Assembly (NCBI GenBank): GCA_028870705.1
Contig: JAGWPD010000055.1
Coordinates: 1-35,166, forward strand
Origin: Gammaproteobacteria bacterium
Lineage (GTDB): Bacteria > Pseudomonadota > Gammaproteobacteria > Steroidobacterales > Steroidobacteraceae
Length of the DNA: 35,166 nucleotides
Direction: 5' to 3'
In this document: positions 11,568 through 28,838 of the stretch, in pieces
Numbering within the stretch: position 1 is the first letter of the stretch
Layout of the letters: each line of letters begins with the position of its first letter
Position numbers and translations under genes: made by a program
The notes under the pieces: model-generated
What the model saw: the letters and a program-made list of their open reading frames with translations, nothing else
Database searches by the model: none
Told to the model about the DNA's origin: nothing

Positions 11568-11788
11568 CAACTGACCCCTGCGGACCCCACTCTAAGAGCG
11601 CACGTTAGCCTGTTAGTTCCGCCGCGGGCAAGCCGGCGGGGCATTTGCGGTCCAGCCGGACTCAATCGCCTGCTTGCCACGACGACGCGTGCGCATAACG
11701 GGCCGATCGCGCGGCAATAACCGCATGACCGCGCAGCGCGCTGCGACTTGAATGGCGCCTCGTCCCAACCACTGCCACGAGGTGAACC

Positions 11789-12043
11789 ATGAGGCACGAG
11801 CAGCCGATGCGCGGTCAGGGCATGACCGAGTACATCATCATCGTGGCGCTGATCGCCGTCGCGGCCATCGGAGTCTACACGGCGTTCGGCAAGACGGTGC
11901 GCGGGCAGATGGCCGTGACCGCGCAGGCGCTGGCCGGCAAGAGCGCCAGCACCGCACGCACCGTATCCAACACGGCGGCCGACGAGGCCCAGGCGCAGGC
12001 CCAGCGCGACCTCAAGCTGGATAACTATGACCAGCCGCGCTAG
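11789..12043 (+). CDS. Flp-type (type IVb) pilin
   Basis: 'MRHEQPMRGQGMTEYIIIVALIAVAAIGVYTAFG': class motif G/XXXXEY with Glu at +5; GAGGTGA RBS directly upstream. Confidence 0.88.
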   Translation: MRHEQPMRGQGMTEYIIIVALIAVAAIGVYTAFGKTVRGQMAVTAQALAGKSASTARTVSNTAADEAQAQAQRDLKLDNYDQPR

Positions 12044-13370
12044 TGCGCGCTTGGTCGGCAGGCCACGGCGCGAAGGCGGGCAGGTGCTGGCACTGCTGCT
12101 GCTTCTGCTGGCGGCGCTGCTCGGGAGCCTGCTGTTCGTGTTCAATTCCGGACAGATCGTGGCGGCGAAGCTCCGCCTGGTCGGTGCTGCCGACGCGGCG
12201 GCGTACAGCGCCGCGCAGGCGCAGGCCCGCGCGCTCAATTTCCAGGCCTACATGAATCGCGCCGTCGTGGCCAACGAAGTGGCCATAGCTCAATGGGTTT
12301 CGCTGCGCTCGTGGTCGGGCTACATGAAGCAGGTCCTCGACGCAGCGGGCACGGTCGGCGCGCTGGTGCCGCCACTTGCCGCACCCATGCAGTCGCTCGC
12401 GCACAGCTGGGATTCGATCGACCGCGGACTGCAGCGCGCACTGCCGCCCCTCGAAGCGGCCGCAAGTGCATGGAACGTCGAGGTGCTGTCCCGGGCCGGG
12501 TCCGTGGCCGACGCACAGGGTGTTGCCGTGGCCGACAGCCTCGCGCAGCAGGTCGCCCTCGAGAACCTGCCGGAGCTGGGCTCGGACGGATTCGGCCGCG
12601 AGTTCAGCGCCGGCAATGCACTGCAGTGGCGCAATTTCACGGCCACGTACGGCCGCAATGGTGACGGGCGGGCGCGGTTGCGCGAAGTGGTCATGGATTC
12701 GCGCGACGGCTTCACCCGCGAGCGCGGCTGGACCCTTGGTTTGCCGCCGCTGCTCGCCCTGCGCAAGCGGGGCGGCACCGACCTCATCGGTTACGAATCA
12801 TGGCGCGGCATGGATACGCTGGCGCTGCGCGTAGCAGCGCTGTTTGGCACACGCGAGCAACCGCTAGCCTGGCAGGCCGCTGAAGATCGGCGTTCGGTAG
12901 CGCCCGGCCGGGGCGTGCACGGCGGCAGTTACCGCGACAATCCACGCAGTTCCTCCTACGCTGCGCGTGCCATCACGGTACGTACGGGATACCGCGGCCT
13001 GCCAGCGTACCGGGACGTGCGCCTGACTAGGCGCCAGGATCAACCATCATTGCGCTATGAGCTGGAGCTGCACCAGGCCGCCGGAACCATCGCGACCAGC
13101 GACTTGGTCTTGAATGGCGCGGCGACCGTGCTGCCCAATGAGGAAGTAAAGGTCGCGCTGCCCGCCTACCACTCGGGGCGTGTGTACGCCTTGTCCGCGG
13201 CGCAAGTCGCCTTCCAGCGGCCGGTCGGTCGCTCGGACCGCAGGCGGGAATTGGCGAGCCTGTTCAATCCCTACTGGCAGGCCCGTCTGGCGCCGGTGAG
13301 TCGCGCGCAGCGCATGCTGGCCGCCGCCGCGCATGGCGGCAGTGGCGATCCATACCTGGGGCTGCCATGA
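12027..13370 (+). CDS. TadG-like pilus assembly protein
   Basis: N-terminal 'GGQVLALLLLLLAALLGSLLFVFNSGQIVAAKLRLVGAADAAAYSAAQAQARALNFQAYMNRA' plus position in the Tad locus. Confidence 0.75.
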   Translation: MTSRASARLVGRPRREGGQVLALLLLLLAALLGSLLFVFNSGQIVAAKLRLVGAADAAAYSAAQAQARALNFQAYMNRAVVANEVAIAQWVSLRSWSGYMKQVLDAAGTVGALVPPLAAPMQSLAHSWDSIDRGLQRALPPLEAAASAWNVEVLSRAGSVADAQGVAVADSLAQQVALENLPELGSDGFGREFSAGNALQWRNFTATYGRNGDGRARLREVVMDSRDGFTRERGWTLGLPPLLALRKRGGTDLIGYESWRGMDTLALRVAALFGTREQPLAWQAAEDRRSVAPGRGVHGGSYRDNPRSSSYAARAITVRTGYRGLPAYRDVRLTRRQDQPSLRYELELHQAAGTIATSDLVLNGAATVLPNEEVKVALPAYHSGRVYALSAAQVAFQRPVGRSDRRRELASLFNPYWQARLAPVSRAQRMLAAAAHGGSGDPYLGLP

Positions 13371-14086
13371 GCTGCCGTGGCCAGGCAATGGTGGAATTTG
13401 CCGTCGCCGCAGGCGTGCTGGCGACACTCCTGGTCGGCATGCCCGTGATCTGCCGCTACCACGAACTCCAGGCCGCCGCCATTGTGGGTGCGCGCAGGGC
13501 GGCCTTCGAGAACTCATGGCAGCCGGCCGGGACCAGGCGCGGCGGGGTCGGGCTGATCCGGCGGGACCTGTTCCCGACGACCGGCGACTCCGGCCAGATC
13601 CTGGCCTCGCACATTGATGCCAGCGAATCGCAGGAGCAGCCGCGTGGCTTGGCCGGACAGGCCGAGCGTGGCCTGTTGGCACCGTTCAATGCAGCCGCGT
13701 TCGTGCAGCCCGGGTTCGACTTGCGCGCTCCGGTGCTGAATCGCAGCGATTTCGCAGTTGCTTTGTCGCGTCCGAACCCAATGCCGCAACCTTTCGATGG
13801 AATTTCGCTCGCGCTGCAGGAGCGCTATGCGCTCATGGGGGAGGACTGGGCCAGCTCCGGGCCTGGCCAGGTTGCAGCCCGGTCCGGGGGCCTGGTCATC
13901 ACGCGTGCATTCAGTCCAAACTCCGCGCTCATCGGCCTCGGAACCCGGCTGCTGTCGATCGTCGAGCCGGCCTTCCGCGAGTTCTGCCCCGGCCAGGTCG
14001 ATCCCGAACGGGTTCCCGCAGACCGCCTTGGCCAGGGCATGGATCACGACAGCGCATCGATTGGCAGCTGGTCGCCGGCATGCTGA
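13367..14086 (+). CDS. TadE-like pseudopilin
   Basis: 'MSCRGQAMVEFAVAAGVLATLLVGMPVICRYHELQAAAIVGARRAAF': G/QAMVEF pseudopilin motif; 4-nt overlap with the preceding gene. Confidence 0.72.
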   Translation: MSCRGQAMVEFAVAAGVLATLLVGMPVICRYHELQAAAIVGARRAAFENSWQPAGTRRGGVGLIRRDLFPTTGDSGQILASHIDASESQEQPRGLAGQAERGLLAPFNAAAFVQPGFDLRAPVLNRSDFAVALSRPNPMPQPFDGISLALQERYALMGEDWASSGPGQVAARSGGLVITRAFSPNSALIGLGTRLLSIVEPAFREFCPGQVDPERVPADRLGQGMDHDSASIGSWSPAC

Positions 14087-14736
14087 GGCTTCTGCCGTGG
14101 TTGGTGGTACTGGCGCCGGCGGTCGTACGTGGCACGGAACTGCCGGCCACTTTCCGCGCGATTCCGGGCGTCGCGCAGCTGCAGATCAACGGATTGCAGG
14201 TCCGCGCGCGCATGATTGCCTCCAGCCTCGCGCCGGCGGGCGCCTGCGCGCAGCTTGCAAAGCATTGGGGTGCTGGTGCGAATGCCGGTTGGACCGCGCG
14301 TTGCCAGCGTGTTGGCCGATGGTTGTTGGTGTCGCATCCGGTAGGTCGTTTCGTCGAGGCCGCGCAACTGGAGGCGGATGCCGACGGCAGCATCGGCTTT
14401 CTGTCCGCGGTCGATCCGTTCGCGGCACATGCGTCCGGCGCACATCCACGCTTGCCACTGCCCGCAGGCGCGAGGCTCGTAAACACCGTGCGCTCCGATC
14501 TGGATCGCGATTCGGTGTTCCAGTTCACGATCGAGTTGCCCTGGACGCCGGCGGTCTCGCTCGCACGGTTGCGCGGGCTCGCGCGCAAATCAGGTTGGGT
14601 CGCGGCGGCCGCCCCCGCGAGCGATGTCGTCGATTTCCAGCGTGGTGACATCGCGGCGCGCGCCATCGGTCTAGGCAGCGCGCGGGGCTGCTCCCTGTTG
14701 TTGATCGAGCACCGGCCGGCAGGTCATGCGCCATGA
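14080..14736 (+). CDS. Hypothetical exported protein within the Tad locus
   Basis: 218 aa; signal-like N-terminus 'MLRLLPWLVVLAPAVVRGTELPA'; overlaps both neighbours; no family recognised. Confidence 0.7.
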   Translation: MLRLLPWLVVLAPAVVRGTELPATFRAIPGVAQLQINGLQVRARMIASSLAPAGACAQLAKHWGAGANAGWTARCQRVGRWLLVSHPVGRFVEAAQLEADADGSIGFLSAVDPFAAHASGAHPRLPLPAGARLVNTVRSDLDRDSVFQFTIELPWTPAVSLARLRGLARKSGWVAAAAPASDVVDFQRGDIAARAIGLGSARGCSLLLIEHRPAGHAP

Positions 14737-14909
14737 ACGGGCGTGACCGGCGGCGGGGACAGGCCATGACCGAATACCTGATCGGTCTGGTCACGGTCGT
14801 GCTTGCGCTGTTCGTGCCTTTGTTCGACGGGCGCTCGGTCGCTGGTGCCCTGGCGAACGCCGTGCGCGACGCCTACGCCACGTTCAGCTATCTGGTTTCG
14901 CTGCTTTAG
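14733..14909 (+). CDS. Second, short Flp-type prepilin (58 aa), not in the ORF track
   Basis: Manual translation: MNGRDRRRGQAMTEYLIGLVTVVLALFVPLFDGRSVAGALANAVRDAYATFSYLVSLL*. G/QAMTEY with Glu+5 followed by a hydrophobic segment; ATGA overlap with the preceding gene. Confidence 0.8.
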   Translation: MNGRDRRRGQAMTEYLIGLVTVVLALFVPLFDGRSVAGALANAVRDAYATFSYLVSLL

Positions 14910-14933
14910 TCCATTGGACGAGGGAGCCCGCAC

Positions 14934-15848
14934 ATGGGGTGGAAATCATGGATGCTCGATCGGAACGTATTGTTCACGGCTGCGGCGGTGGCATGCGGCA
15001 TGGCCGCCTACCTGCTGGCGCACCGCTACCTCCAGGGCGCCGAAGCCGCGGCGCGTCGCCAACTGGCCGGCGACTATGCCACGCGCGATGCGCTGGTGGC
15101 GGCGCAGCCGCTGCCTGCAGGTTCCGTGATCGAACCGGCAATGCTGGCGCAGCGGGCCGTGCCTGAAAGATTCATGGCCAGCGATGCCCTGGCAGCCGAA
15201 GGTGCGGCTGCGGTCGTCGGGCGTCGGCTCGGACGCGCCCTGGCCAGCGGGGAAGTCATGACGGCATCGGCTCTGGCTGCCGAGAACGAAGTGGAGCTGT
15301 CGTCGCTGGTCGAGCAGGGCTGGCGTGCGCTCACCATCCCCGTCGACGAAAGCAGCGCGGCCGCCGGCCTTATCGATCCGGGCGACTACGTGGATCTGCT
15401 GCTGGCCACCAGCGGCGACGGGAATGGATCCAGGGCGCAGGTGCGACCCTTGCTGCAAGCCGTACGCGTGGTTGCCACGGGCCAGCGGATGCTGCGCCGC
15501 CGTGGGACCGGCGGCGATCGGGAGGCGGTGCCCGCCGAGTCGACCTACGCAACCGTCACACTGCGCCTGCCGCCTGAAGATGCCGAACGCGTGCTGCTGG
15601 CCCAGCGCCTGGGCGAGCTCGCAGTGTTGCTGCGTCCAGCCGGTGATGCCGAGCCACTGGTGCTGCGCGCAGTCGATCAAAGCCAGCTGTTCGGAGCCGC
15701 CGAAACCCGTCGCGGTGCGGTCCTGGTCTCGCGGGTTGAATTCATCGTCGGTGGCGTGGGTGGTTCGGCGCACGCCCGCACGACCGCGGCGCTGGCCAAC
15801 GCGGCACTGGCCAATGCGGCACTGGCCAATGCCGGGGCTCGGCCGTGA
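14934..15848 (+). CDS. cpaB: Flp pilus assembly protein CpaB/RcpC
   Basis: SAF-like region 'ALVAAQPLPAGSVIEPAMLAQRAVPERFMASDALAAEGAAAVVGRRLGRALASGEVMTASAL', 'AGLIDPGDYVDLLL', 'ATVTLRLPPEDAERVLLAQRLGELAVLLRP'. Confidence 0.9.
   Translation: MGWKSWMLDRNVLFTAAAVACGMAAYLLAHRYLQGAEAAARRQLAGDYATRDALVAAQPLPAGSVIEPAMLAQRAVPERFMASDALAAEGAAAVVGRRLGRALASGEVMTASALAAENEVELSSLVEQGWRALTIPVDESSAAAGLIDPGDYVDLLLATSGDGNGSRAQVRPLLQAVRVVATGQRMLRRRGTGGDREAVPAESTYATVTLRLPPEDAERVLLAQRLGELAVLLRPAGDAEPLVLRAVDQSQLFGAAETRRGAVLVSRVEFIVGGVGGSAHARTTAALANAALANAALANAGARP
15789..15833 (+). repeat. Three in-frame tandem 15-bp units (GCRCTGGCCAAYGCN), encoding ALANA x3
   Basis: Direct reading: GCGCTGGCCAACGCG / GCACTGGCCAATGCG / GCACTGGCCAATGCC at the 3' end of cpaB. 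Confidence 0.95.
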
Positions 15849-17149
15849 TCCGCCGCAATCGGCGCGGGCGGCACCGCTGTGGCGCGCCTGGCGTTGCCAC
15901 GATGCTGGTGCTGGGTCTGGGTGTGACCGCGACCCTGCACCCCGTCTCCCCGGCGATGGCCGCGATCGGGGCCACGGTCGCGCCTGCGCCCGGCCCCGCG
16001 AAGCCGGCCACCGAGCGCTTCGAAATGTACATCGGCGATACACGCGTGCTCGATATCGATGCCCGCCGCGTGGCGGTGGGCAATGGCCGCGTAATATCGG
16101 TCAAGCAGGTAGAGGGCAACAGGCTGGTGCTGCTGGGCGAGGCGACTGGCGCCAGCGCCATCCACGTTTGGATGCGCGATGGAGGGCACCGCCGCTATGT
16201 CGTCAACGTCCTCGAATTCAACGGCGAGCTCCTGTATGGCCAGGTGCAGCGACTGCTCGACGGCACACGTCAGATCACGGTACGCCTCGCCGGTGACCGC
16301 ATCGTGCTCGAGGGCCACAGGGTCAGCAATGGCGACCGGGAGAGGGTCGCGACCATCGCCAAGGCATATCCCGGCCGGGTCTTCGATTTCATCGACCGCG
16401 TCGGCTGGGACGCGATGATCCACATGCACGTCAGCATTCTCGAGGTACGACATTCGGCCTTGGACAGCCTGGGAGTCCGCTGGGACAACATGCTCCGGGG
16501 GCCCGTCGCGAATGTGGATTCAGCCGGTGAACCGGGCCGGCACGGTTACCTCGAATGGTCGGCGAAACTCGGCTCGACGATCGACCTGCTGCGCCAGCGC
16601 GGTGAGGCCCGGATCGTGGCCGAGCCCACGCTCAGCTGCCGCAGCGGCGGCGAGGCGCATTTCGTCGCTGGCGGGGAGTTGCCGATTCCGGTGACCAACG
16701 GCGTCGGCACTCCGAGCGTCCAATATCACGAATACGGCGTCATCCTCGACGTCAAGCCAGCCGCCGACGATGCCGGCAACGTCTACGTGCGCGTTGAAAC
16801 CGAAGTCAGTGACATCGACCGCAGCGTGCAGGTGCTGGGCGTGCCCGCGTTCCTGAAGCGGCATTCGAATACCGAGGTCAACGTGCGGGCCGGCGAGACG
16901 ATCGTCATCGCGGGGCTGGTTGACCGTTCGCGCAGCACGGATCGGCACGGTCTGCCGGTGTTGGGCGCGATTCCGGGCATCTCGCCGCTGTTCCAGTCGC
17001 GTAGCCGCGAATTCAAGGACTCGGAGCTCGTGGTGCTGATCACGCCGCAAATCGTGGCCGCCCGGGCCGCCGTGGCCGACGCGCCCGATCCCGGCTTGCA
17101 GCAACTCGAGCGCGCTGAACACGTGCTGCGTGGGCCGGGTGCACGGTGA
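15845..17149 (+). CDS. cpaC: Outer-membrane secretin CpaC/RcpA
   Basis: 'RVLDIDARRVAVGNGRVISVKQVEGNRLVLLGEATGASAIHVW'; secretin 'GEARIVAEPTLSCRSGGEAHFVAGGELPIPV', 'VNVRAGETIVIAGLVDRSRSTDRHGLPVLGAIPGISPLFQSRSREFKDSELVVLITPQIV'. Confidence 0.95.
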   Translation: MIRRNRRGRHRCGAPGVATMLVLGLGVTATLHPVSPAMAAIGATVAPAPGPAKPATERFEMYIGDTRVLDIDARRVAVGNGRVISVKQVEGNRLVLLGEATGASAIHVWMRDGGHRRYVVNVLEFNGELLYGQVQRLLDGTRQITVRLAGDRIVLEGHRVSNGDRERVATIAKAYPGRVFDFIDRVGWDAMIHMHVSILEVRHSALDSLGVRWDNMLRGPVANVDSAGEPGRHGYLEWSAKLGSTIDLLRQRGEARIVAEPTLSCRSGGEAHFVAGGELPIPVTNGVGTPSVQYHEYGVILDVKPAADDAGNVYVRVETEVSDIDRSVQVLGVPAFLKRHSNTEVNVRAGETIVIAGLVDRSRSTDRHGLPVLGAIPGISPLFQSRSREFKDSELVVLITPQIVAARAAVADAPDPGLQQLERAEHVLRGPGAR

Positions 17150-18429
17150 GCGCTGCGCGCGCCGATGACATGGCCCTGGCGCGGCAGATCCAGGAGGACC
17201 TGCGCGCCGAGCTCGACCTGCGCCGCACCGAAGTGGCGCAGCTGGCCGATGCGCCACTGCGCGAACTCGCGTGGCGAGTGGTGCGGCAAAACGTTGCGCG
17301 CCGCCGTTTGCCGCCCGATGTTGATCCGGAGACGCTGGCTCGCTCCGTGATCGACGAGGCGCTGGGCTATGGGCCGCTCGAGCCGATGCTTGCGGATCCG
17401 ACCATCAGCGAGGTCATGGTCAATGGGCATGCTGTGGTATATGTCGAGCGCCACGGGCGCATCGAACCATGCCCGGCCATCTTCAGCAGCGAGCAGGCCC
17501 TGCGCAGCGTCATCGACCGCATCGTCGCCGGCGCGGCGCGACGCGTGGATGAATCCTCGCCGATGGTCGATGCGCGGCTCCCCGATGGTTCGCGTGTCAA
17601 CGTGGTACTGCCGCCGCTGGCATTGAATGGCCCCTGCATGACCATCCGCCGCTTCAGCCGGCTGCGGCTGGACATCCCGGCGCTGGTGCGGCGCGGCGCG
17701 CTGAGCGAGTCGATGGCGCGCTTCCTCGGCGCCGCGGTGCGCGCCCGGCTGAATGTCATGATTTCGGGTGGCACGGGGTCCGGCAAGACCACACTGCTCA
17801 ACGCCATTGCCGGTCTCGTACCCGCGGGCGAGCGCATCATCACCATCGAAGACGCGGCGGAACTCGCGCTCCACCACAACCACGTCGTCGCGCTCGAGGC
17901 GCGCCCGCGCAACCTGGAGGGCCACGGCGAAGTCACGATTCGCGACCTGGTGCGCAATGCGCTGCGCATGCGCCCCGACCGGATCATCGTCGGCGAGTGC
18001 CGTGGCGGCGAGGCGCTCGACATGTTGCAGGCGATGAACTCGGGTCACGAGGGTTCGCTCACGACGGCCCACGCAAATTCCGCTCGTGACCTGCTGTCGC
18101 GCCTCGAGGTGATGGCGCTGATGGCCGGGATGGACCTGCCGGTCCCAGCCATACGCGCGCAGATAGCCGGCGCGCTGGACCTGCTGGTGCACACGAGCCG
18201 CGCTGCGGATGGTGTACGGCGGGTCAGCAGTATCGTCGAGGTCGTCGGCTGCGACAGCGGCATCGTGCAGACGCAGGAGTTGTACGCCTGTGACGCAGCC
18301 GGCATACACCACGCGTGCGGGCAGATCCCGGCCTGCATCGAGCGGCTGCGCTCGACCGGCATGCTTGGCGACTCCAGCCTGTGCTTCGATCACCCGGGCA
18401 ACGGCAACCTGCGATGTATCTCGTCCTGA
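17146..18429 (+). CDS. cpaF: Tad secretion ATPase CpaF/TadA
   Basis: Walker A 'ISGGTGSGKTTLLNAIAGL', 'MRPDRIIVGECRGGEALDMLQAMNSGHEGSLTTAHANSARDLLSRLEVM', 'LEPMLADPTISEVMVNG'. Confidence 0.97.
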   Translation: MSAARADDMALARQIQEDLRAELDLRRTEVAQLADAPLRELAWRVVRQNVARRRLPPDVDPETLARSVIDEALGYGPLEPMLADPTISEVMVNGHAVVYVERHGRIEPCPAIFSSEQALRSVIDRIVAGAARRVDESSPMVDARLPDGSRVNVVLPPLALNGPCMTIRRFSRLRLDIPALVRRGALSESMARFLGAAVRARLNVMISGGTGSGKTTLLNAIAGLVPAGERIITIEDAAELALHHNHVVALEARPRNLEGHGEVTIRDLVRNALRMRPDRIIVGECRGGEALDMLQAMNSGHEGSLTTAHANSARDLLSRLEVMALMAGMDLPVPAIRAQIAGALDLLVHTSRAADGVRRVSSIVEVVGCDSGIVQTQELYACDAAGIHHACGQIPACIERLRSTGMLGDSSLCFDHPGNGNLRCISS

Positions 18430-19262
18430 GCGCATTCGCCGCGGCAGGTGCGGTATTGCTGGCGGCGCCAGCCATGTCAGCGGCCGCGCGCATGTGGGCG
18501 AATCGTCTGCATGGATCGCGGCTCGCCACCGTCGGGCAGGAGCTGCCGGAAGTATTCGTGTTCGTCGATCCCAATCGCTACGCGTGGATGCTGGTCGGCC
18601 TGGTTCTCACCGCCTGCATCGTCGTCGGCGTGCTGACACGGAGCGGATTGGCCAGCAGCGTGGCCGGTGCGCTGGCACTGTTCATCCCGGCCATGGTCAT
18701 GCGGTGGCTGCGGCGGCGACGCAGACGGGCCTTGTTGCGGCAACTGCCAGGTTGCCTGGATCTCATCGCGGTGTCGCTGCGCTCCGGTCTGGCCCTGCTG
18801 CCTGCGATCCAGCACCTCGCGCGGAATCAGCCGCCACCGATCGGGCAGGAGTTGGCATTGGTCATACGCCGGCACCGGCTGGGCTCCAGCATCGATGTGG
18901 CGCTCGAAGACCTGCACCGCCGCATGGGCGGATTCGAAGCCGCCTTGTTCGTGACGGCCGTCGGGGTCGCGCGCCAGCTCGGCGGCAACCTGTCGGAGAT
19001 ACTGGCCCGATTGAGCCAGACACTGCGGGAAAGGCAGGCCATCGAGGCGAAGATCACGGCGCTCACCGCCCAGGGACGCCTGCAGGCGCGCATCGTCGCG
19101 CTGCTGCCGCTGGCGCTGTTGCTGGTGTTGAATCGCATGGAGCCGCGGGCCATGCAACTCATGTACACGACACCCCAGGGCTGGGCGGCGCTCCTCGTAC
19201 TGGCGGTGCTGGAAGTGAGCGGCATGCTGCTGCTGCGCCGGCTGGTGAGGATCGAGGTCTGA
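18414..19262 (+). CDS. tadB: TadB, type II secretion system F-domain inner membrane protein
   Basis: 'LLRQLPGCLDLIAVSLRSGLALLPAIQHLAR', 'VTAVGVARQLGGNLSEILARLSQTLRERQAIEAKITALTAQGRLQARIV'. ATG at 18414 preferred over the track start at 18315; overlaps cpaF by 16 nt. Confidence 0.9.
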   Translation: MYLVLSAFAAAGAVLLAAPAMSAAARMWANRLHGSRLATVGQELPEVFVFVDPNRYAWMLVGLVLTACIVVGVLTRSGLASSVAGALALFIPAMVMRWLRRRRRRALLRQLPGCLDLIAVSLRSGLALLPAIQHLARNQPPPIGQELALVIRRHRLGSSIDVALEDLHRRMGGFEAALFVTAVGVARQLGGNLSEILARLSQTLRERQAIEAKITALTAQGRLQARIVALLPLALLLVLNRMEPRAMQLMYTTPQGWAALLVLAVLEVSGMLLLRRLVRIEV

Positions 19263-19979
19263 ATGGCCGCGGCCACGACAGCATGCGCCGGGGCCGGATG
19301 GCGCCACAGGCTCGACGCGATTCTCGAACAGGCTGGCCTCGACCCTCATGTGCAGGCCCGCCAGTGGCTGGCGCTCGCCTGCCTGAGCGCTGGGCTCGCT
19401 GCGCTATTCGCCCTCGCTGTGACGAGTGCATCGGGTGCGACCCTGCTGTGGCAGGCCATGGCGGCAGCGGCCGCAGGCGCCTTGTTGCCCTGGCTGTGGC
19501 TGCGCGATCGCCTGTTCCGCCGCCGCAACGATCTCCTGCGCGAGCTTCCTGGTTACCTCGACCTGCTGACGCTCGGTCTCGAGGCGGGTTGCGCATTCGG
19601 CGTCGCGCTGCAACTGACGGTCATGCGCTCGGCACCCGGGCCGCTGCGAAGGGCGATGGAGCGCGCACTGCAGGAGATCCGCGCGGGCCGCGGCCGCTCC
19701 GAGGCCTTGCTGCGGGTCGCGCAGCGCCTGCGCGTGGGCGCGCTGAACGAGGCCGTGGCCGCCATCGTGCAGGCCGAGGCGACCGGCGTGAGTCTTGCGC
19801 CCGTAATGCGCGCGCAGGCAGTGCGCGCGACCCAGGAGCGGTTCGCCCGCGCCGAGAAGCGGGCCATGGAGGCACCGGTGAAGATGCTGGCGCCGCTGGT
19901 GCTGTGCATCTTTCCCTGCACCTTCATCGTGATCGGCTTTCCCATCGCGGTGCGGTTGTTCTGGGGAGCTGCGCCATGA
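19263..19979 (+). CDS. tadC: TadC, type II secretion system F-domain inner membrane protein
   Basis: 'LLRELPGYLDLLTLGLEAGCAFGVALQLTV', 'MEAPVKMLAPLVLCIFPCTFIVIGFPIAVRLF'. Confidence 0.9.
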   Translation: MAAATTACAGAGWRHRLDAILEQAGLDPHVQARQWLALACLSAGLAALFALAVTSASGATLLWQAMAAAAAGALLPWLWLRDRLFRRRNDLLRELPGYLDLLTLGLEAGCAFGVALQLTVMRSAPGPLRRAMERALQEIRAGRGRSEALLRVAQRLRVGALNEAVAAIVQAEATGVSLAPVMRAQAVRATQERFARAEKRAMEAPVKMLAPLVLCIFPCTFIVIGFPIAVRLFWGAAP

Positions 19980-20317
19980 GGCGCGCAACCCTGGCCGTGA
20001 ACGGAGTGCCCGTCGGGTGGCCGGTCGCGTGCTGCGATTCCTTCTGGTGGCGATTGCGAGGCCAGCTGGCGGCGCGCCGGCGGCATGGGCTGATATGGAT
20101 GCTGAGTCCGTGCAGCGCCGTGCATAGTTTCTTCCTGGCGCAACCCATCGATGTGGCGTTCTGCGATGCCGACGGCCTGATTGTCCGCGTCTTCGTCCCG
20201 ATGCAGGCCTGGCGCCTGGCCGCGGCGCGCGGAGCGGCCAGCGCCTGGGAATTTCCGGCTGGCTCCCTTGATCGCCTGGCACTGGGCCGGGGGGATCGCC
20301 TTTCGCTATGCGCGTGA
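19976..20317 (+). CDS. DUF192 domain-containing protein
   Basis: In the same frame as the mis-started track ORF 18209..20317; translation from ATG 19976 gives 'MLSPCSAVHSFFLAQPIDVAFCDADGLIVRVFVPMQAWRLAAARGAASAWEFPAGSLDRLALGRGDRLSL', the DUF192 pattern. Overlaps tadC (ATGA) and the next gene. Confidence 0.82.
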   Translation: MRRATLAVNGVPVGWPVACCDSFWWRLRGQLAARRRHGLIWMLSPCSAVHSFFLAQPIDVAFCDADGLIVRVFVPMQAWRLAAARGAASAWEFPAGSLDRLALGRGDRLSLCA

Positions 20318-20940
20318 GTAACCATGTGGAGCGTGGCGCGACGCTGGTCGAATTCGCACTTGTCCTGACGCTGGGCGTGCTGCCATTGGTGCTGGGAATC
20401 CTGCAGGTGGCCGCATTGCTGGTCGCCAAGAACGAACTGAACCTCGCCGCCTACATGGCTGCCCGCCAGGGTGCGGTCAGCGGTGCCGATCCGGACGCGA
20501 TGCGCCGCGAACTCGCGCGATCGATGGTCGCCATGTATGTGCGGGTCGCGCGCGCTGGCGCAGTCCCCGCCGCCGACGTGGCGGTGGCCTATGCCGCAGC
20601 GATGGCGGATGTCACGGCCCTTGATACGCTGGCGGTCCTGTCGCCAACGCGCGCCGTGCTCGATCGTGTCGGCATCAATCGCGGCGGCAGGCGCGTCATT
20701 CCGAATGACTCCATCGAGTTCCGTGCGGCCGCAGTGCAGGCCGCCAACGTCCTGACGATCGAAGTGACGCACTGCCAGCCGCTGGTCGTGCCACTGGCCG
20801 GGCCTGCGCTGGCGCTGGCGCTGGCGGTGTTGGATGCGGATCCCCGCCATCGACGTTGCGTGGCGTTCGGCCGGGCGCCGATCGCGGCGCGCGCAAGCCT
20901 CGTGATGCAGAGCGATGTGCATGCGGATGCCTTGCGTTAA
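20308..20940 (+). CDS. TadE-like pseudopilin/assembly protein
   Basis: 'VERGATLVEFALVLTLGVLPLVLGILQVAALLVAKNELNLAAYMAARQGAV': G/ATLVEF motif. Confidence 0.85.
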   Translation: MRVSNHVERGATLVEFALVLTLGVLPLVLGILQVAALLVAKNELNLAAYMAARQGAVSGADPDAMRRELARSMVAMYVRVARAGAVPAADVAVAYAAAMADVTALDTLAVLSPTRAVLDRVGINRGGRRVIPNDSIEFRAAAVQAANVLTIEVTHCQPLVVPLAGPALALALAVLDADPRHRRCVAFGRAPIAARASLVMQSDVHADALR

Positions 20941-20949
20941 TATCGCCCG

Positions 20950-21918
20950 ATGGCCCGCATCGCCTTGCACACCCGCTGCGTTTGGGTCGCAGCCTTGCTG
21001 CTGGCCGCCTGCGAGCGCGATCAGAATCCAGCGGCTGTCGGCACGCTCGAGCGCCACCGCTTCGAGATCGCGGCGACCGCCGCCGAGCAGATCGTGGCGA
21101 TGCCGGTGCGCGAAGGGCAGGCCGTGCAGCAGGGCGAGCTCGTGGCGCGGCTCGATGGCGGGTCGCTGGCGGCGACCCGCGCCAGCGTCGCGGCACAGGC
21201 AAGCCAGCTGCGGCACCGTCTGGACGAGCTCCGCAATGGTGCGCGGCCCGGCGAGATCGACGCCGCGCGCGCACAGGTCGCGGCCGCGACCGCGCAGCGC
21301 GACCAGAGCGCGAAGGAGTACCGGCGGCTCGCCGAGCTCGCGGCGCGTGGGCTGGTCGCGCAGTCTCAGGCCGACCAGCAACTGGAGCTGCGCGACAGCA
21401 CCGAGGCCGCATTGCGCGCGGCGCAGGCCGGCCTGGGCCTGCTGCTGCAGGGCACGCGCCCAGAGCAGGTCGACCAGGCCCGTGCCGCGCTCCAGTCGGC
21501 CGAGTCGCTCGTGAAGCAGCAGGATGTGCTGCTCGATCGATTGCGCCTGCTCGCTCCGGTCGACGGCAGGATCGAGGCGCTCCCGTACCGGCTCGGCGAA
21601 CGACCGCAGCTGGGCGCGCCGGTCGTGATCATGCTGGCCAGCGGCATGCCATTTGCGCGCGTCTACATCCCGGAGCCGCAGCGCGCCGCGTTGCATGCGG
21701 GGCAGGCCATGCAGGTGCGCGTCGATGGCATTGCCCGGCTCTTCAAGGGCACGTTGCGCTACATTGCCGGCGAGGCGAGCTTCACGCCGTACTTCGCGCT
21801 CACGCAGCGTGACCGCAGCCGGCTGGCCTTCCTCGCCGAGGTCGACCTGCCCGAGGCCGCGGCGCGCGATCTGCCGGCGGGCGTCCCGGTCGAGGTGCCG
21901 CTGGGCCAGGCGCCGTGA
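20950..21918 (+). CDS. HlyD/YbhG-type periplasmic adaptor, probable lipoprotein
   Basis: Lipobox 'AALLLAACERD'; biotinyl-lipoyl-like 'AEQIVAMPVREGQAVQQGELVARLDGGSL'; coiled-coil; 'LLAPVDGRIEALPYRLGERPQLGAPVVIML'. Confidence 0.9.
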   Translation: MARIALHTRCVWVAALLLAACERDQNPAAVGTLERHRFEIAATAAEQIVAMPVREGQAVQQGELVARLDGGSLAATRASVAAQASQLRHRLDELRNGARPGEIDAARAQVAAATAQRDQSAKEYRRLAELAARGLVAQSQADQQLELRDSTEAALRAAQAGLGLLLQGTRPEQVDQARAALQSAESLVKQQDVLLDRLRLLAPVDGRIEALPYRLGERPQLGAPVVIMLASGMPFARVYIPEPQRAALHAGQAMQVRVDGIARLFKGTLRYIAGEASFTPYFALTQRDRSRLAFLAEVDLPEAAARDLPAGVPVEVPLGQAP

Positions 21919-22871
21919 GCGGGGCCAGCGCGGCGGAGGCCGGCGCCGCCATCGAGGCGCACGCGCTCACGCGCCGTTTCGGCCCGGTGGTTGCGGTCGA
22001 TGGGGCCGAACTGTCGATACCGCGCGGCCGCATCTACGGTTTCCTGGGGCCGAATGGGTCGGGCAAGTCGACCACGATCCGCATGCTTTGCGGCCTGATC
22101 AGGCCCACGAGCGGCACGATCCGCGTGCTGGGCCTCGACATTCCGCGCCAGGCCGAGTCGCTCCGCACGCTGATCGGCTACATGACGCAGCGCTTTTCAC
22201 TGTGGGAAGACCTGAGCGCGCGCGAGAACCTCGCGTTCATGGCCAGCATCCACACGCTCGCGCCGGACCACGCCGCACAACGCATTGGCGCGGCGGTCGA
22301 GGAGTACCGGCTCGGCGAGTTCTTCGATCGTCCGGCCGGCACGCTCAGTGGCGGCCAGAAGCAGCGCCTGGCGCTGGCGGCGGCCACGCTCCATGCACCA
22401 CCGCTGCTGATGCTCGATGAGCCGACCAGCGCGGTCGACCCGCAGAGCCGGCGTGATTTCTGGGAGAGCCTTTTCACGCTCGCGGCGCGCGGCACGACAA
22501 TCCTGGTGTCCACGCATTACATGGACGAGGCCGAGCGATGCCACGCGCTCGCGATCCTCGATCGCGGGCGGATCGTCGCCAACGGTCCGCCGCAGCAGCT
22601 GATGGCGCAGCTCCCGCTGCAGGTGATCGAGATCGAGACCGAGGATACGGTCGGTGCGCGCGCGGCGCTCCGCGGGCTCGATTCGCTCCGCTCGCTGGCG
22701 CAACTGGGGCTGCGGCTCCATGCGCTGCTGGCGCCCGGAGAAGCCGACGCCATTGCGCGGGTCGAGCTGCTGCTGGCCGAGCACCACGTGCGGGCCAGCG
22801 TGCGGCGCTCGGTCGCCAGCCTCGAGGATGTGTTCGTCGGCGCCACGCTCGCCAGCGGCGCGGGCCGGTAG
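21915..22871 (+). CDS. ABC transporter ATP-binding protein
   Basis: Walker A 'GPNGSGKSTT', signature 'LSGGQKQRLALAAATLHAPPLLMLDEPTSAVDPQSRR', 'STHYMDEAERC'. Confidence 0.96.
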   Translation: MSGASAAEAGAAIEAHALTRRFGPVVAVDGAELSIPRGRIYGFLGPNGSGKSTTIRMLCGLIRPTSGTIRVLGLDIPRQAESLRTLIGYMTQRFSLWEDLSARENLAFMASIHTLAPDHAAQRIGAAVEEYRLGEFFDRPAGTLSGGQKQRLALAAATLHAPPLLMLDEPTSAVDPQSRRDFWESLFTLAARGTTILVSTHYMDEAERCHALAILDRGRIVANGPPQQLMAQLPLQVIEIETEDTVGARAALRGLDSLRSLAQLGLRLHALLAPGEADAIARVELLLAEHHVRASVRRSVASLEDVFVGATLASGAGR

Positions 22872-23975
22872 ATGCTGCCGGCTTCGCTGCGGCGCACGCG
22901 CGCCATCGCCGTCAAGGAGCTGCGGCAGCTCTCACGCGATCGTCTGACGCTGGCGATGGTGGTCGGCATTCCGCTGGTGCAGATGCTGATCTTCGGCTAC
23001 GGCATCAACTACGACGTGCGCCACATCCGCGCCGGCGTGGTCGACCTGGCCAACACCGGGGCCTCGCGCGCGCTGGTGGCCGACATCGCCTCGAGCCAGG
23101 TGGTCGACTTCGTCGCCCGCCCGGCCGGCGCGGATGAACTGCGGCGCATGATCGTCGCGGGCGACGTGCATGCGGGGCTGTACATCCCACCGGATTTCGA
23201 GCGCCGGAGGATCGACGCCTCGCGTCCGGTGGCGCAGGTGATCGTCGATGGCACGCGGCCGGGAGTCGACACCGCCGTGCGCGCCATCACCGATGCGCCG
23301 CTGCCGGGACGGAGCGGCCTCGTGCGCCGCGCGACACCGTCGATCGAGGTGCTGACCGAGTTCAATCCCGAGAAGCGCACCGCGGTGCAGGTCGTGCCGG
23401 CGCTGATCGGCGTGATCCTCAGCATGACGATGGTGATCTTCACCGCGATCGCGCTGGTGCGCGAGCGTGAGCGCGGCAACCTCGAATTGCTGATCACGAC
23501 GCCGGTCCGCCCGATCGAGCTGATGGTGGGCAAGATCCTGCCTTACATCGGCGTCGGGCTGGTGCAGACGACGCTGGTTCTGCTGGTCGGTGTGCTGCTA
23601 TTCGACGTGCCGATCAACGGTCGGCTGCTCGATCTGTACCTGGGCGCCGGGCTGTTCATCGCCGCCACGCTGGGCCTCGGGTTGGTGATCTCGACGGTCG
23701 CCGCGACGCAGTTCCAGGCGATGCAGCTTGGGTTCTTCACTTTGCTGCCTTCGATCCTGCTGTCGGGGTTCGCGTTTCCGTTCGAAGGCAGCCCCAGGTT
23801 GGTGCAATACCTGGCGCAGGTGCTGCCGCTCACGCATTTCGTCGAGATCCTGCGCGGCGTGATCCTGCGCGGCGCGACGCTCGGGGAGCTGTGGCTGCCG
23901 GTGGCCAAGCTGGCGGCCTTCCTGGTCGTGGCGGTGGCGCTGGCCGCGATCCGCTTCCGCAAGCGGCTCGACTGA
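22872..23975 (+). CDS. ABC-2 type transporter permease
   Basis: 'AIAVKELRQLSRDRLTLAMVVGIPLVQMLIFGYGINYDVRHI', 'RERERGNLELLITTPVRPIELMVGKILPYIGVGL', 'SGFAFPFEGSPRLVQYLAQVLPLTHFVEILRGVILRG'. Confidence 0.95.
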   Translation: MLPASLRRTRAIAVKELRQLSRDRLTLAMVVGIPLVQMLIFGYGINYDVRHIRAGVVDLANTGASRALVADIASSQVVDFVARPAGADELRRMIVAGDVHAGLYIPPDFERRRIDASRPVAQVIVDGTRPGVDTAVRAITDAPLPGRSGLVRRATPSIEVLTEFNPEKRTAVQVVPALIGVILSMTMVIFTAIALVRERERGNLELLITTPVRPIELMVGKILPYIGVGLVQTTLVLLVGVLLFDVPINGRLLDLYLGAGLFIAATLGLGLVISTVAATQFQAMQLGFFTLLPSILLSGFAFPFEGSPRLVQYLAQVLPLTHFVEILRGVILRGATLGELWLPVAKLAAFLVVAVALAAIRFRKRLD

Positions 23976-24106: not shown

Positions 24107-26590
24107 ATGAGTTCCCGAGATCCCAGTTCCTGGGTCGTCCACAAGTTCGGTGGTTCGAGCGTCGCGAACGCCGATTGCTTCGCGCGCGTGGCGGCGATCA
24201 TCGAATCGCAGCCGGGCCGGCGCCTGGCGGTGGTGCTCTCGGCCTGCCGCGGCGTGACCGATGGTCTGCTGCAGCTCGTGCAGCTCGCGGAGCGGCAGGA
24301 TGAGGCCTGGCACGGCCAGCTTGCCGCGCTCCGGGCGCGCCATGCGGAGATTGCCGCGGCGCTCCTGCCGCCGGGCGGCGTTGCGGAATTCCTCGCCGAA
24401 TTCGACCGTGATGCGGCCGACCTGGATGGCGTGCTGCGCACCACGCAGGTCATGCGCACCGCCGGCCAGCATGTGCGCGACAAGGTGTCCGGGTACGGCG
24501 AGATCTGGTCGACGCGCCTGTTCTGGCGCTATCTCGCGCATCGGGGCAAGCGCGGCGGCCTGCAGTGGATCGACGCGCGCAGCTGCGTGGTGGCCGAGTG
24601 GGGGCCGCTGGGTCCCTCGATCCACTGGCAATCGTCCACGACGCGGCTGCGCGCGCTGCTGCAGCCCGAGGCAGCGACGCTGGTCATCACCGGGTACATC
24701 GCCAGCGACCCGGCCGGCATCCAGACGACGCTGGGCCGCAATGGCAGCGATTTCTCCGCCTCGATCTTCGGCGCGCTGCTGGCGGCGGGCGAGATCCAGA
24801 TCTGGACCGACGTCGACGGCGTGCTCTCGGCCGATCCGCGCCGGGTGCCGGATGCGCAGATCATCAGCACGCTGTCCTACAACGAGGCCATGGAGCTGGC
24901 GTACTTCGGCGCCAAGGTGATCCACCCGCAGACCATGGCGCCGGCCGTCGGCCGCGACATACCGATCTGGATCCGCAACACCTTTGCGCCGGAGCGGTCC
25001 GGCACGCTGATCTGCGCGCAACCGCGCTCCGAGCAGCCGGTCAAGGGGATCACCAGCATCGAGGATGTCGCGCTCGTCAACCTCGAGGGCGCCGGCATGA
25101 TCGGCGTGCCGGGCACCGCGCACCGCCTGTTCGGCGCGCTGCGCGAAGAGGACATCTCGGTCATCCTGATCTCGCAGGGCAGTTCGGAGCATTCGATCTG
25201 CTGCGCGATCCCGGCGGCGCAGGCCGCGCGCGCCACCCGGGTGCTCGAGCGCGCCTTCGCGCGCGAGCTCGCCGACGGCCAGATCCAGAGCGTCGAGGTC
25301 ACGGGCGAACTGGCGATCCTGGCGGTGGTCGGCGATGGCATGGCCGGCATGCCCGGCGTCGCCGGCAAGGTGTTCAATGCGCTCGGCGCCGCGAACGTGA
25401 ACGTGCGCGCGATCGCGCAGGGCGCCTCCGAGCGCAATATCTCGGTGGTGGTCGAAGGGACCCAGGCGACACGTGCGCTGCGTGCGGTGCACGCCGGGTT
25501 CTATCTTTCACCGCACACGCTCTCGATCGGCGTGATCGGGCCGGGCACGGTCGGCAAGGTGCTGCTCGACCAGCTCGCCAGCCAGCATGAACGGCTGGCG
25601 CGGCAGTTCAACATCGACCTGCGCGTGCGCGGCATCATGCGCTCGAATTCGATGACGCTGGCGGAGCAGAGCATCCCGCTGCAGCGCTGGCGCGAGTCGA
25701 TCGCGCAGGGCGCGGTGGACGCGGATTACGCACGGTTCTTCGCACACCTGAAGGTCGACCACCTGCCGCACACGGTGATCATCGACTGTACCGCCAGCCA
25801 GGAAGTTGCCGACCGCTACCACGGCTGGCTGGCGGCGGGCGTGCACGTGATCACGCCGAACAAGAAGGCGAACAGCGGTCCGCTCGCATACTACGAATCG
25901 CTCAAGGCCGCGCGGCGCCAGAGCGGCGCGCACTACCTCTACGAGGCGACGGTGGGCGCGGGGCTCCCGGTGATCCAGTCGGTGCGCGACCTGCGCGAGA
26001 CCGGCGATGACATCGCGAGCATCGAGGGGATCTTCTCCGGCACGCTGGCATATCTCTTCAACGTCTATGACGGCTCGAGCGCCTTCTCCGCGATCGTGCG
26101 CGACGCCAAGCAGCGCGGCTACACCGAACCCGATCCGCGCGATGACCTGTCGGGCACCGACGTGGCGCGCAAGCTCATCATCCTGGCGCGCGAGATGGGC
26201 CTGCAGCTCGAGCTCGGCGATGTGCGGGTCGAGAGCCTGGTGCCGGGCGATCTTGCCGGTGGCAGCAGCGAGCAGTTCCTGGAACAGTTGCCGCGCTACG
26301 ATGCGCAGATGGCGCAACGCTTCAGCGCGGCGAAGTCGCGTGGGCGAGTGCTGCGTTACGTCGGGCGCATCACCGCAGCCGGCGAAGCCACCGTAGGGCT
26401 CGAGGAACTGGACGCGAAGCATTCCTTCGCCAATATCGCGCTGACCGACAACGTCGTGCGATATTCCACTTCACGATACTGTGATAACCCGCTGATTGTT
26501 CAAGGCCCAGGTGCCGGACCCGCCGTCACCGCCGGCGGCGTGTTCGCCGACCTGCTGCGGGTGGCAACCTTCCTTGGGGCCCGCCTGTGA
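24107..26590 (+). CDS. thrA: Bifunctional aspartokinase / homoserine dehydrogenase
   Basis: 827 aa; 'VVHKFGGSSVANADCF', ACT region 'SEHSICCAIPAAQA', HSDH 'SIGVIGPGTVGKVLLDQL', 'GLPVIQSVRDLRETGDDIASIEGIFSGTLAYLFN'. Confidence 0.96.
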   Translation: MSSRDPSSWVVHKFGGSSVANADCFARVAAIIESQPGRRLAVVLSACRGVTDGLLQLVQLAERQDEAWHGQLAALRARHAEIAAALLPPGGVAEFLAEFDRDAADLDGVLRTTQVMRTAGQHVRDKVSGYGEIWSTRLFWRYLAHRGKRGGLQWIDARSCVVAEWGPLGPSIHWQSSTTRLRALLQPEAATLVITGYIASDPAGIQTTLGRNGSDFSASIFGALLAAGEIQIWTDVDGVLSADPRRVPDAQIISTLSYNEAMELAYFGAKVIHPQTMAPAVGRDIPIWIRNTFAPERSGTLICAQPRSEQPVKGITSIEDVALVNLEGAGMIGVPGTAHRLFGALREEDISVILISQGSSEHSICCAIPAAQAARATRVLERAFARELADGQIQSVEVTGELAILAVVGDGMAGMPGVAGKVFNALGAANVNVRAIAQGASERNISVVVEGTQATRALRAVHAGFYLSPHTLSIGVIGPGTVGKVLLDQLASQHERLARQFNIDLRVRGIMRSNSMTLAEQSIPLQRWRESIAQGAVDADYARFFAHLKVDHLPHTVIIDCTASQEVADRYHGWLAAGVHVITPNKKANSGPLAYYESLKAARRQSGAHYLYEATVGAGLPVIQSVRDLRETGDDIASIEGIFSGTLAYLFNVYDGSSAFSAIVRDAKQRGYTEPDPRDDLSGTDVARKLIILAREMGLQLELGDVRVESLVPGDLAGGSSEQFLEQLPRYDAQMAQRFSAAKSRGRVLRYVGRITAAGEATVGLEELDAKHSFANIALTDNVVRYSTSRYCDNPLIVQGPGAGPAVTAGGVFADLLRVATFLGARL

Positions 26591-27534
26591 GCCCGCGGAA
26601 GCCGGCGCGCGAGAGCGCACGGGCCTATGCGCCGGCCTCGGTGGGCAATGTGGCGATCGGCTTCGACATCCTCGGCTTCTCGGTCGGCGCACTCGGCGAT
26701 CGCGCCACGGTGCGGCGCACGGCGGGAGCCGGGGTGAAGATTGCCGCCATCCGCGGGGTGGTCGCCGACCTGCCGCTCCAGGTGGCGCAAAACACGGCGG
26801 GCCGTGCGCTCGAAGCAATGCGCGAGTCGCTCGGGCTCGATTTCGGAATGGAACTCGAGCTGGACAAGGGCATCCCGCTCGCTTCGGGCCTGGGTGGATC
26901 GGCGGCCTCGGCCGTCGCGGCGGTGGTTGCGGCCAACGCGCTGCTGCCCGAACCCTGCTCGCAGCTGCACCTGCTGAAGTTCGCGATGCAGGGCGAGAAG
27001 GTGGCCAGCGGGTCGCTCCACGTCGACAACATCGCGCCTTCGCTGTTCGGCGGGCTGGTGCTGACGGTCGGCATCGACCAGCCGCGGGTGAAGCAGATCC
27101 CGGTGCCGCAGGCGGTGCGCGCCGTGGTGGTCCACCCGCACATGTTGCTGTCGACGCGCGAGGCGCGCGCGATCCTCAAGGCCAGCGTGCCGATGCAGGA
27201 CTTCGTCTGGCAGACCGCCAACCTCGCCGGCTTCATCTCGGGCTGCTACACCGACGACCTCGACATGCTGCGCGATTCCTTCGAGGACGTCGTGATCGAA
27301 CCGCAACGCGCAGCGCTGATTCCCGGGTTCACGGCGGTGCGGCGCGCCGCGATGTCGGCGGGCGCGCTCGGCTGCTCGATTTCGGGCGCCGGCCCGACGG
27401 TATTTGCCTGGTGCGTGGCGAGCCATGCGCTGGCGGTGCGGGAGGCGATGGTGTTGCAGTTCGCGCGCCACGAGCTGCAATGTGACCACTGGACCACTGC
27501 GCTCGAGCCGGTGGGCGCGCGCGTGGAGGCCTGA
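26587..27534 (+). CDS. thrB: Homoserine kinase
   Basis: GHMP kinase 'YAPASVGNVAIGFDILGFSV', 'GIPLASGLGGSAASAVAAVVAAN', 'GCSISGAGPTVFAW'. Confidence 0.96.
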   Translation: MSPRKPARESARAYAPASVGNVAIGFDILGFSVGALGDRATVRRTAGAGVKIAAIRGVVADLPLQVAQNTAGRALEAMRESLGLDFGMELELDKGIPLASGLGGSAASAVAAVVAANALLPEPCSQLHLLKFAMQGEKVASGSLHVDNIAPSLFGGLVLTVGIDQPRVKQIPVPQAVRAVVVHPHMLLSTREARAILKASVPMQDFVWQTANLAGFISGCYTDDLDMLRDSFEDVVIEPQRAALIPGFTAVRRAAMSAGALGCSISGAGPTVFAWCVASHALAVREAMVLQFARHELQCDHWTTALEPVGARVEA

Positions 27535-28838
27535 TGCAATTCGTCAGTACGCGCGATGCAAGCCACCAGGCGAGCTTCAGCGAGGCGCTGGGCCGCGGTC
27601 TCGCGGCCGGCGGCGGCCTGTATGTGCCGCTCGAATGGCCGGCGTCGGCCGTCGCGGGCGTGCGCGCAGGGGAAGCGCTCGCCAGCCAGGCGGCGCAATT
27701 CCTGGCGCCATTTGCCAGTGGCGATCCGCTGGCGGCCGAAATGCCGGCAATCGCTGGCGAGGCCTTCAATTTCCCGGCGCCGCTCGTGCCGCTCGATGGC
27801 GATCGGCTGGGCGTGCTCGAGCTGTTCCACGGTCCGACCGCGGCGTTCAAGGATTTCGGCGCGCGTTTCCTCGCCGCGGCGCTGGTGCGCCTGCGTCGCG
27901 GCGCGCCGCGCCCGCTGAAGATTCTCGTGGCGACCTCCGGCGATACCGGCGGCGCGGTCGCGGCAGCCTTCCATCGGCAGCCCGGCATCGAGGTGGTGGT
28001 GCTGTTCCCGAAGGGGCAGGTGTCGCCGACGCAGCAACAGCAACTGACCTGCTGGGGCGACAACGTGCAGAGTCTCGCCGTGCGCGGCAGCTTCGACGAC
28101 TGCCAGCGCCTGGTGAAGCAGGCGTTCGCGGCGCCGGGGTTCGCGGCCGCGTGGGACCTGTCGTCGGCCAACAGCATCAATCTCGGCCGGCTGCTGCCGC
28201 AGGCCGTGTACTACGTCGCCAGCAGCGTGCAACTGCGCGCGCGCACCGGCAAGCCGGCCTCGTTTATCATTCCGAGCGGCAATCTCGGCAACGCCACGGC
28301 CTGCGTGTGGGCGCGGCGCCTCGGCGCGCCAATCGCCGAGATCGTGCTGGCGCACAACGCCAACCGCACGGTGCCCGACTACCTGGCGGAGGGCGTGTTG
28401 CGGATTCGCGCGAGCGTGGCCACACTTGCTTCGGCGATGGATGTCGGCAACCCGAGCAACCTCGAGCGCCTGACGGCGCTCTATCCCGACGCGGCTGCGC
28501 TGGGCCTGGCGATCAGCGCGGTGTCGGTCGACGATGGCGCGATCCGTGCGCGCATCCGTGCCGACCATGAGCGCTTCGGCGCGCTGTGGTGCCCGCATAC
28601 CGCGACCGCGGCCGAGGCGTGGGCGCTCATGCCGGCCGCGCGACGCGGCAGCCAGCAGTGGGTGCTGGTGGCCACGGCGCACCCGGCCAAGTTCCGCGAG
28701 ACCGTCGAGCCGCTGGTCGGTCGGCCGGTGCCGGTGCCCGCTTCGCTGGCGCGGCTGTTCGGCCGGCCGGCGCAGTACACCGAGATCGATGCGACGCTCG
28801 CGGCACTCCAGGCGACGCTGGAGCGGCGGGCCGCATGA
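27534..28838 (+). CDS. thrC: Threonine synthase
   Basis: 'STRDASHQASFSEALGRGLAAGGGLYVP', PLP site 'HGPTAAFKDFGARFLAAAL', 'IPSGNLGNATACVWARRLG'. Confidence 0.95.
   Translation: MQFVSTRDASHQASFSEALGRGLAAGGGLYVPLEWPASAVAGVRAGEALASQAAQFLAPFASGDPLAAEMPAIAGEAFNFPAPLVPLDGDRLGVLELFHGPTAAFKDFGARFLAAALVRLRRGAPRPLKILVATSGDTGGAVAAAFHRQPGIEVVVLFPKGQVSPTQQQQLTCWGDNVQSLAVRGSFDDCQRLVKQAFAAPGFAAAWDLSSANSINLGRLLPQAVYYVASSVQLRARTGKPASFIIPSGNLGNATACVWARRLGAPIAEIVLAHNANRTVPDYLAEGVLRIRASVATLASAMDVGNPSNLERLTALYPDAAALGLAISAVSVDDGAIRARIRADHERFGALWCPHTATAAEAWALMPAARRGSQQWVLVATAHPAKFRETVEPLVGRPVPVPASLARLFGRPAQYTEIDATLAALQATLERRAA

Follow-up and report, generated by a model that had tools for sequence, protein, structure and literature searches.

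The window analysed here is a stretch of 35,166 nucleotides of gammaproteobacterial DNA. A Tad pilus operon spans about 11789 to 20940 of this window, and a short gene for a DUF192 protein is embedded in it. The genes of the operon, in their order, are as follows:

11789-12043, + strand: probable major pilin (MRG/QGMTEYIIIVALIAVAAIGVYTAF), recognised from its sequence
12027-13370, + strand: TadG-like protein (PF13400, 22.8 bits at a cut-off of 22.3)
13367-14086, + strand: TadE/F-like minor prepilin with N-terminal RG/QAMVEF, recognised from its sequence (no Pfam match; homologues in relatives)
14080-14736, + strand: unassigned Tad-locus gene, conserved in relatives (no Pfam match; homologues in L016 and L022)
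14934-15848, + strand: rcpC/cpaB (PF16976, 98 bits; SAF)
15845-17149, + strand: rcpA secretin (PF00263, 132 bits; PF13629, 45 bits)
17146-18429, + strand: tadA/cpaF assembly ATPase (PF00437, 209 bits)
18414-19262, + strand: tadB, T2SSF platform protein, probable start at ATG 18414 (PF00482, 64.5 bits)
19263-19979, + strand: tadC, T2SSF platform protein (PF00482, 47.5 bits)
19976-20317, + strand: Tad-type DUF192 protein of 113 aa without a signal peptide (PF02643; AF2 model and fold; codon-position GC)
20308-20940, + strand: tadE-like minor prepilin (RG/ATLVEF), starting at ATG 20308 (PF07811, 32.6 bits)

The union of TadA, TadB, TadC, RcpA, RcpC and TadE/G-like genes identifies this as a Tad pilus locus. 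The major pilin at 11789-12043 went undetected in a PF04964 search of its own genome. TadZ was not found in the window, and the Tad locus leaves no room for tadZ; the TadZ_N model, which also misses many true TadZ proteins, had no match in the genome (about 93% complete). A single A24 prepilin peptidase is encoded in this genome, on another contig, and none lies within the Tad locus. Because both TadZ and TadV are missing from it, the locus was filed as a Tad variant rather than as a complete classical set. Directly past tadE, genes for an HlyD-type periplasmic adaptor, an ABC ATPase and an ABC-2 permease follow at 20950-23975 (+), and the HlyD and ABC genes hold the same position in two congeners (L015 and L016). 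These are followed at 24107-28838 (+) by a thrABC-like operon encoding a fused aspartokinase/homoserine dehydrogenase, a GHMP (homoserine) kinase and threonine synthase. On the other side, a subtilase with PKD-type domains at 9411-11570 (-) is divergent from the Tad locus.

The DUF192 gene shares its frame with a 702-aa ORF (18209-20317), of which only the part from ATG 19976 had been predicted to be a real gene. GC content by codon position in this frame was 0.80/0.75/0.52 over 18209-19975, where the lowest value at the third position indicates non-coding sequence, and 0.70/0.58/0.79 over 19976-20314, compared with about 0.72-0.78/0.47-0.55/0.79-0.84 in the TadA, TadB, TadC and TadE reference genes. 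The long ORF was therefore rejected in favour of a coding start at 19976; it is an artefact of a frame that stays free of stop codons upstream, across tadB and tadC. The gene itself is complete, running from ATG 19976 to a TGA ending at 20317 (113 aa), and the predicted lock between tadC and the tadE-like gene was exact, with a 4-nt overlap (ATGA) on the tadC side and a 10-nt overlap on the tadE side. Since the genes overlap, translation of DUF192 is probably coupled to that of TadC and TadE.

Assignment of the protein to DUF192 was confirmed by the HMM search, in which the 113-aa translation scored 28.2 bits against PF02643 (cut-off 27; E = 2e-6), just above the threshold. PF02643 was likewise matched at E<=0.01 by each of the 70 sequences in alignment A3. 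An AF2 model of the window protein, built from an alignment of 70 sequences, reached a pLDDT of 90.3 and a pTM of 0.84, and when it was compared with the PDB by Foldseek, the sole significant matches were the DUF192 structures 3pjy (TM 0.84) and 3m7a (0.81). The nearest NCBIfam model, NF002996 (PRK03760, hypothetical protein), has no assigned function; it gave 33-66 bits for three members, far under its cut-off of 146 bits. To our knowledge, DUF192 as a whole is still without an assigned function.

Two branches of the family were separated by profile searches: ordinary DUF192 proteins and the type found in the window (Tad type). In relatives, ten loci, the window's own included, scored 128-171 bits with the window-type profile and the rest at most 45; in the sample of the class, 23 genomes scored 77-109 bits and the rest at most 55. 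The genome also encodes a second DUF192 protein, on contig C197, that is of the ordinary type (105 Pfam bits). The bipartition between the two types received a support of 0.984 (FastTree). Both types share one fold, that of ordinary secreted DUF192 (PF02643/COG1430; 3pjy, 3m7a), and a common core of R-x-x-G-L, P-[IL]-D, E, G and G-D, but the Tad type differs in having no signal peptide, in its H-T-x-G-M motif, in its usual Cys46 and R80, and in its linkage to Tad genes. Where ordinary proteins read W-M-K-N-T, Tad-type proteins instead read H-T-x-G-M; the window protein carries V-H-S-F-F-L, and the W-M-[KR]-N-T motif that precedes P-L-D in the ordinary branch is absent from it. Residue 50 (window numbering) was H in 102/102 Tad-type and W in 40/42 ordinary sequences, and residues 51/53/54/80 were T/G/M/R as against M/N/T/S; the 102 comprise 33 class or relative loci and 69 distant sequences, and since HT.GM was part of the pattern used to retrieve the latter, these carry a bias at positions 50-54. 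H50 was found in all 33 class and relative loci, a set chosen without this pattern. Cys46 was present in 92 of the 102 Tad-type sequences.

Linkage of the Tad-type gene to Tad genes was assessed in successively wider samples. Among relatives, 9/9 homologues adjoin tadC or sit directly between tadC and tadE; those of three congeneric genomes, at 48-50% identity, occupy the same tadC-tadE slot. In the class sample, 22 of 23 Tad-type DUF192 genes lay beside TadC, and RcpC was present in 21 of these 23 genomes as against 38/274 overall (Fisher p = 5e-19). In the phylum sample, eight loci besides the window's own reached 67 bits or more, and seven of them had RcpC encoded no more than 7 kb away. 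Among the best 80 of 312 loci on genome contigs, 65 were Tad-linked, across about ten phyla, and about 15 had no Tad genes nearby; since the ranking was by likeness to seeds that were themselves Tad-linked, the remaining 232 may show less linkage. Same-strand TadA/B/C genes accompanied 62 of the 65 linked loci, and the remaining 3 had opposite-strand Tad genes or RcpC only. Labels of the linked loci included Gammaproteobacteria, betaproteobacteria, Acidobacteria, Chloroflexi, Desulfobacterota/Deltaproteobacteria, Bacillota, Verrucomicrobia, Gemmatimonadetes, Omnitrophota and Actinomycetota, among others. TadC was the immediate upstream neighbour (<=150 nt) of the Tad-type gene in 40/60 cases, and TadE was a direct neighbour in close relatives only. 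Carriers of the Tad-type gene include Shewanella sp. UCD-KL12 and Lysobacter chinensis. In the control set, no Tad genes were found within about 6 kb on each side of 42 ordinary DUF192 loci (0/42). These combined data bear out the recurrent linkage that a neighbourhood analysis had been expected to reveal. The linkage also supports the pilus-related role that the original prediction proposed, the function itself being what we infer rather than what was demonstrated.

The Tad-type gene was also found to be inherited together with TadA. Distances between DUF192 proteins correlated with those between the TadA proteins of the same 75 loci (Mantel r = 0.59; largest value in 999 permutations, 0.14), and presence or absence of DUF192 required 3 changes on the TadA tree, compared with a mean of 13.4 and a minimum of 9 after shuffling. 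That DUF192 is an ordinary housekeeping passenger, in the operon by chance and with no part in the pilus, is accordingly very improbable: the family has no known role and some homologues are unlinked to Tad, but chance would have to account for linkage over about ten phyla with 0/42 in the control and for the co-divergence with TadA, in a genome that already has a separate ordinary paralogue.

The original suggestion that the protein lacks a signal peptide and may act in the cytoplasm gained support from two observations. Neither a signal peptide nor a membrane anchor was found in the window protein, which in this is unlike the ordinary branch; by N-terminal hydropathy, 1/110 Tad-type proteins had a signal- or anchor-like N-terminus, as against 40/42 ordinary ones. 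The ordinary protein Saro_0823 (3m7a) is periplasmic, with a processed signal peptide (PMC3608174). In one draft genome (G033), a single reading frame joins DUF192 to TadE, with DUF192 on the N-terminal side (L020:10034-11098, - strand), and the linker has no start codon ahead of the pilin motif RG/AATVEF. The leader of type IV prepilins is cytoplasmic, and the DUF192 part of this fusion should therefore be cytoplasmic too. Given the missing signal peptide and this fusion, the cytoplasm is the probable location of Tad-type DUF192. Since Tad-type DUF192 accompanies Tad genes in Chloroflexota and Bacillota, it cannot generally require an outer membrane, and a role there is unlikely.

Subfamily identity, Tad linkage, co-divergence with TadA and the missing export signal were computed in silico; what the protein does biochemically is what we infer from them. 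On balance, we favour the reading, with some reserve, that proteins of this distinct signal-less DUF192 subfamily are dedicated to the Tad pilus machine, which they would serve as accessory subunits in the cytoplasm. Such a subunit would work on the cytoplasmic side of the TadB/TadC platform in the inner membrane, where it would most likely bind TadC, the cytoplasmic leader of TadE or other minor prepilins, or both. Judged by their conservation, H50-T51, R80, D59, E92 and R26-x-x-G29 form a candidate partner- or ligand-binding site. Such a protein may help to load prepilins or keep the platform assembly-competent. Most alphaproteobacterial Tad loci examined, as well as Pseudomonas-type loci, are without DUF192; given that well-studied Tad systems do without it, DUF192 is not a core Tad part.

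In gammaproteobacteria, Tad-type DUF192 marks a Tad subtype without tadZ and in-locus tadV. When TadZ was searched with seeds from DUF192-negative loci, PF16968 (TadZ_N) being too narrow, it was found in 14/14 DUF192-negative loci and in 1/32 DUF192-positive loci, where the match was weak. An in-locus A24 peptidase was present in 9/14 DUF192-negative loci and in no DUF192-positive locus, and nearly all DUF192-positive gammaproteobacterial genomes encode a PilD-like A24 peptidase elsewhere. In each of two genomes (G101 and G142), a Tad locus with DUF192 and without in-locus TadV coexists with another that has TadV and Flp but no DUF192.

The near-exclusive distribution of TadZ and DUF192 in these bacteria would be expected if DUF192 were a regulator or localisation factor that stands in for TadZ and takes over its hub role. 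We consider this unlikely, given that about 30 loci outside the gammaproteobacteria carry both TadZ and DUF192 and that the DUF192 fold has no relation to that of ParA/MinD ATPases; the idea that DUF192 substitutes for TadZ in general was rejected on the former ground. Slightly less probable still is that DUF192 is a prepilin-modifying or -processing enzyme, with Cys46/His50 and acidic residues, that compensates for the missing in-locus TadV. The lack of an in-locus peptidase, the near invariance of H50, D59 and E92, and the fusion to the TadE leader all fit such an enzyme. Against it, PilD-like peptidases are available elsewhere in nearly all the genomes concerned, the pilins retain normal cleavage motifs, Foldseek revealed no structural likeness to any peptidase of note, and 10/70 sequences have G, S, E or T at position 46 instead of Cys, for which reason a catalytic Cys46 was downgraded.

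A more far-reaching version of the accessory-subunit reading, which we put forward tentatively and hold to be rather doubtful in its entirety, is that DUF192 is an unrecognised Tad part of many phyla, a cytosolic protein that would handle minor prepilins at the platform and thereby control the initiation of assembly, and that the gammaproteobacterial Tad subtype runs without TadZ and a prepilin peptidase of its own.

The window locus and the Tad (type IVc) pili of Pseudomonas, Aggregatibacter and Caulobacter have homologues of TadA, TadB, TadC, RcpA, RcpC, TadE and TadG in common. Unlike those systems, the window locus has neither tadZ nor an in-locus tadV, and its major pilin is divergent; their published component lists contain no DUF192 protein (PMC12307814, PMC6668835). 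Tad pili have been proposed to descend from archaeal Epd-type pili (PMC6668835). In the literature on DUF192/COG1430/PF02643 searched outside subscription journals, only one paper, from December 2025, also treats the Tad pilus, and under UPF0127 there was none. It describes a 112-aa DUF192 gene, with no function assigned, as the penultimate gene of the tad operon of Bulleidia extructa (Bacillota), and reports the gene from Bulleidia and Helcococcus as well as from two metagenomic Erysipelotrichales (PMC12786226). Likened by description, that gene and the window gene are both short, lie inside a Tad operon and have a fold like 3pjy; the window gene differs in its tadC-tadE slot, its proteobacterial origin and in belonging to a type seen across about ten phyla. 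The split of DUF192 into subfamilies, the breadth over phyla and the subtype without TadZ and TadV appear to be unreported in the literature searched, subscription journals aside. A DUF192 subfamily tied to one machine provides a testable context for a family without an assigned function, and points to a Tad component that is missing from the model systems used to study Tad pili.

A number of individual loci showed further arrangements, with neighbours judged by eye. Among Tad-type homologues unlinked to Tad, no single alternative gene context was found. One such orphan (L076:8948-9328, + strand; G144), in a genome without RcpC, has R26 changed to H and is flanked by response-regulator-like and DsbA-like genes; others lie beside a ComEC-like gene (L119), a ComF-like gene (L102) or conjugation-type-looking genes (L171). 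A tblastn search of plasmids for Tad-type DUF192 gave four partial matches only. Two DUF192 copies were present in the Tad regions of L115 (2149-2502 and 9965-10306) and L130 (4086-4439 and 9938-10285), the second copy in L130 having a weak score. In L172 (4096-5121, + strand), the DUF192 frame runs on into a membrane protein that, judged by eye, is similar to isoprenylcysteine carboxyl methyltransferases; this may be a fusion or an adjacent start.
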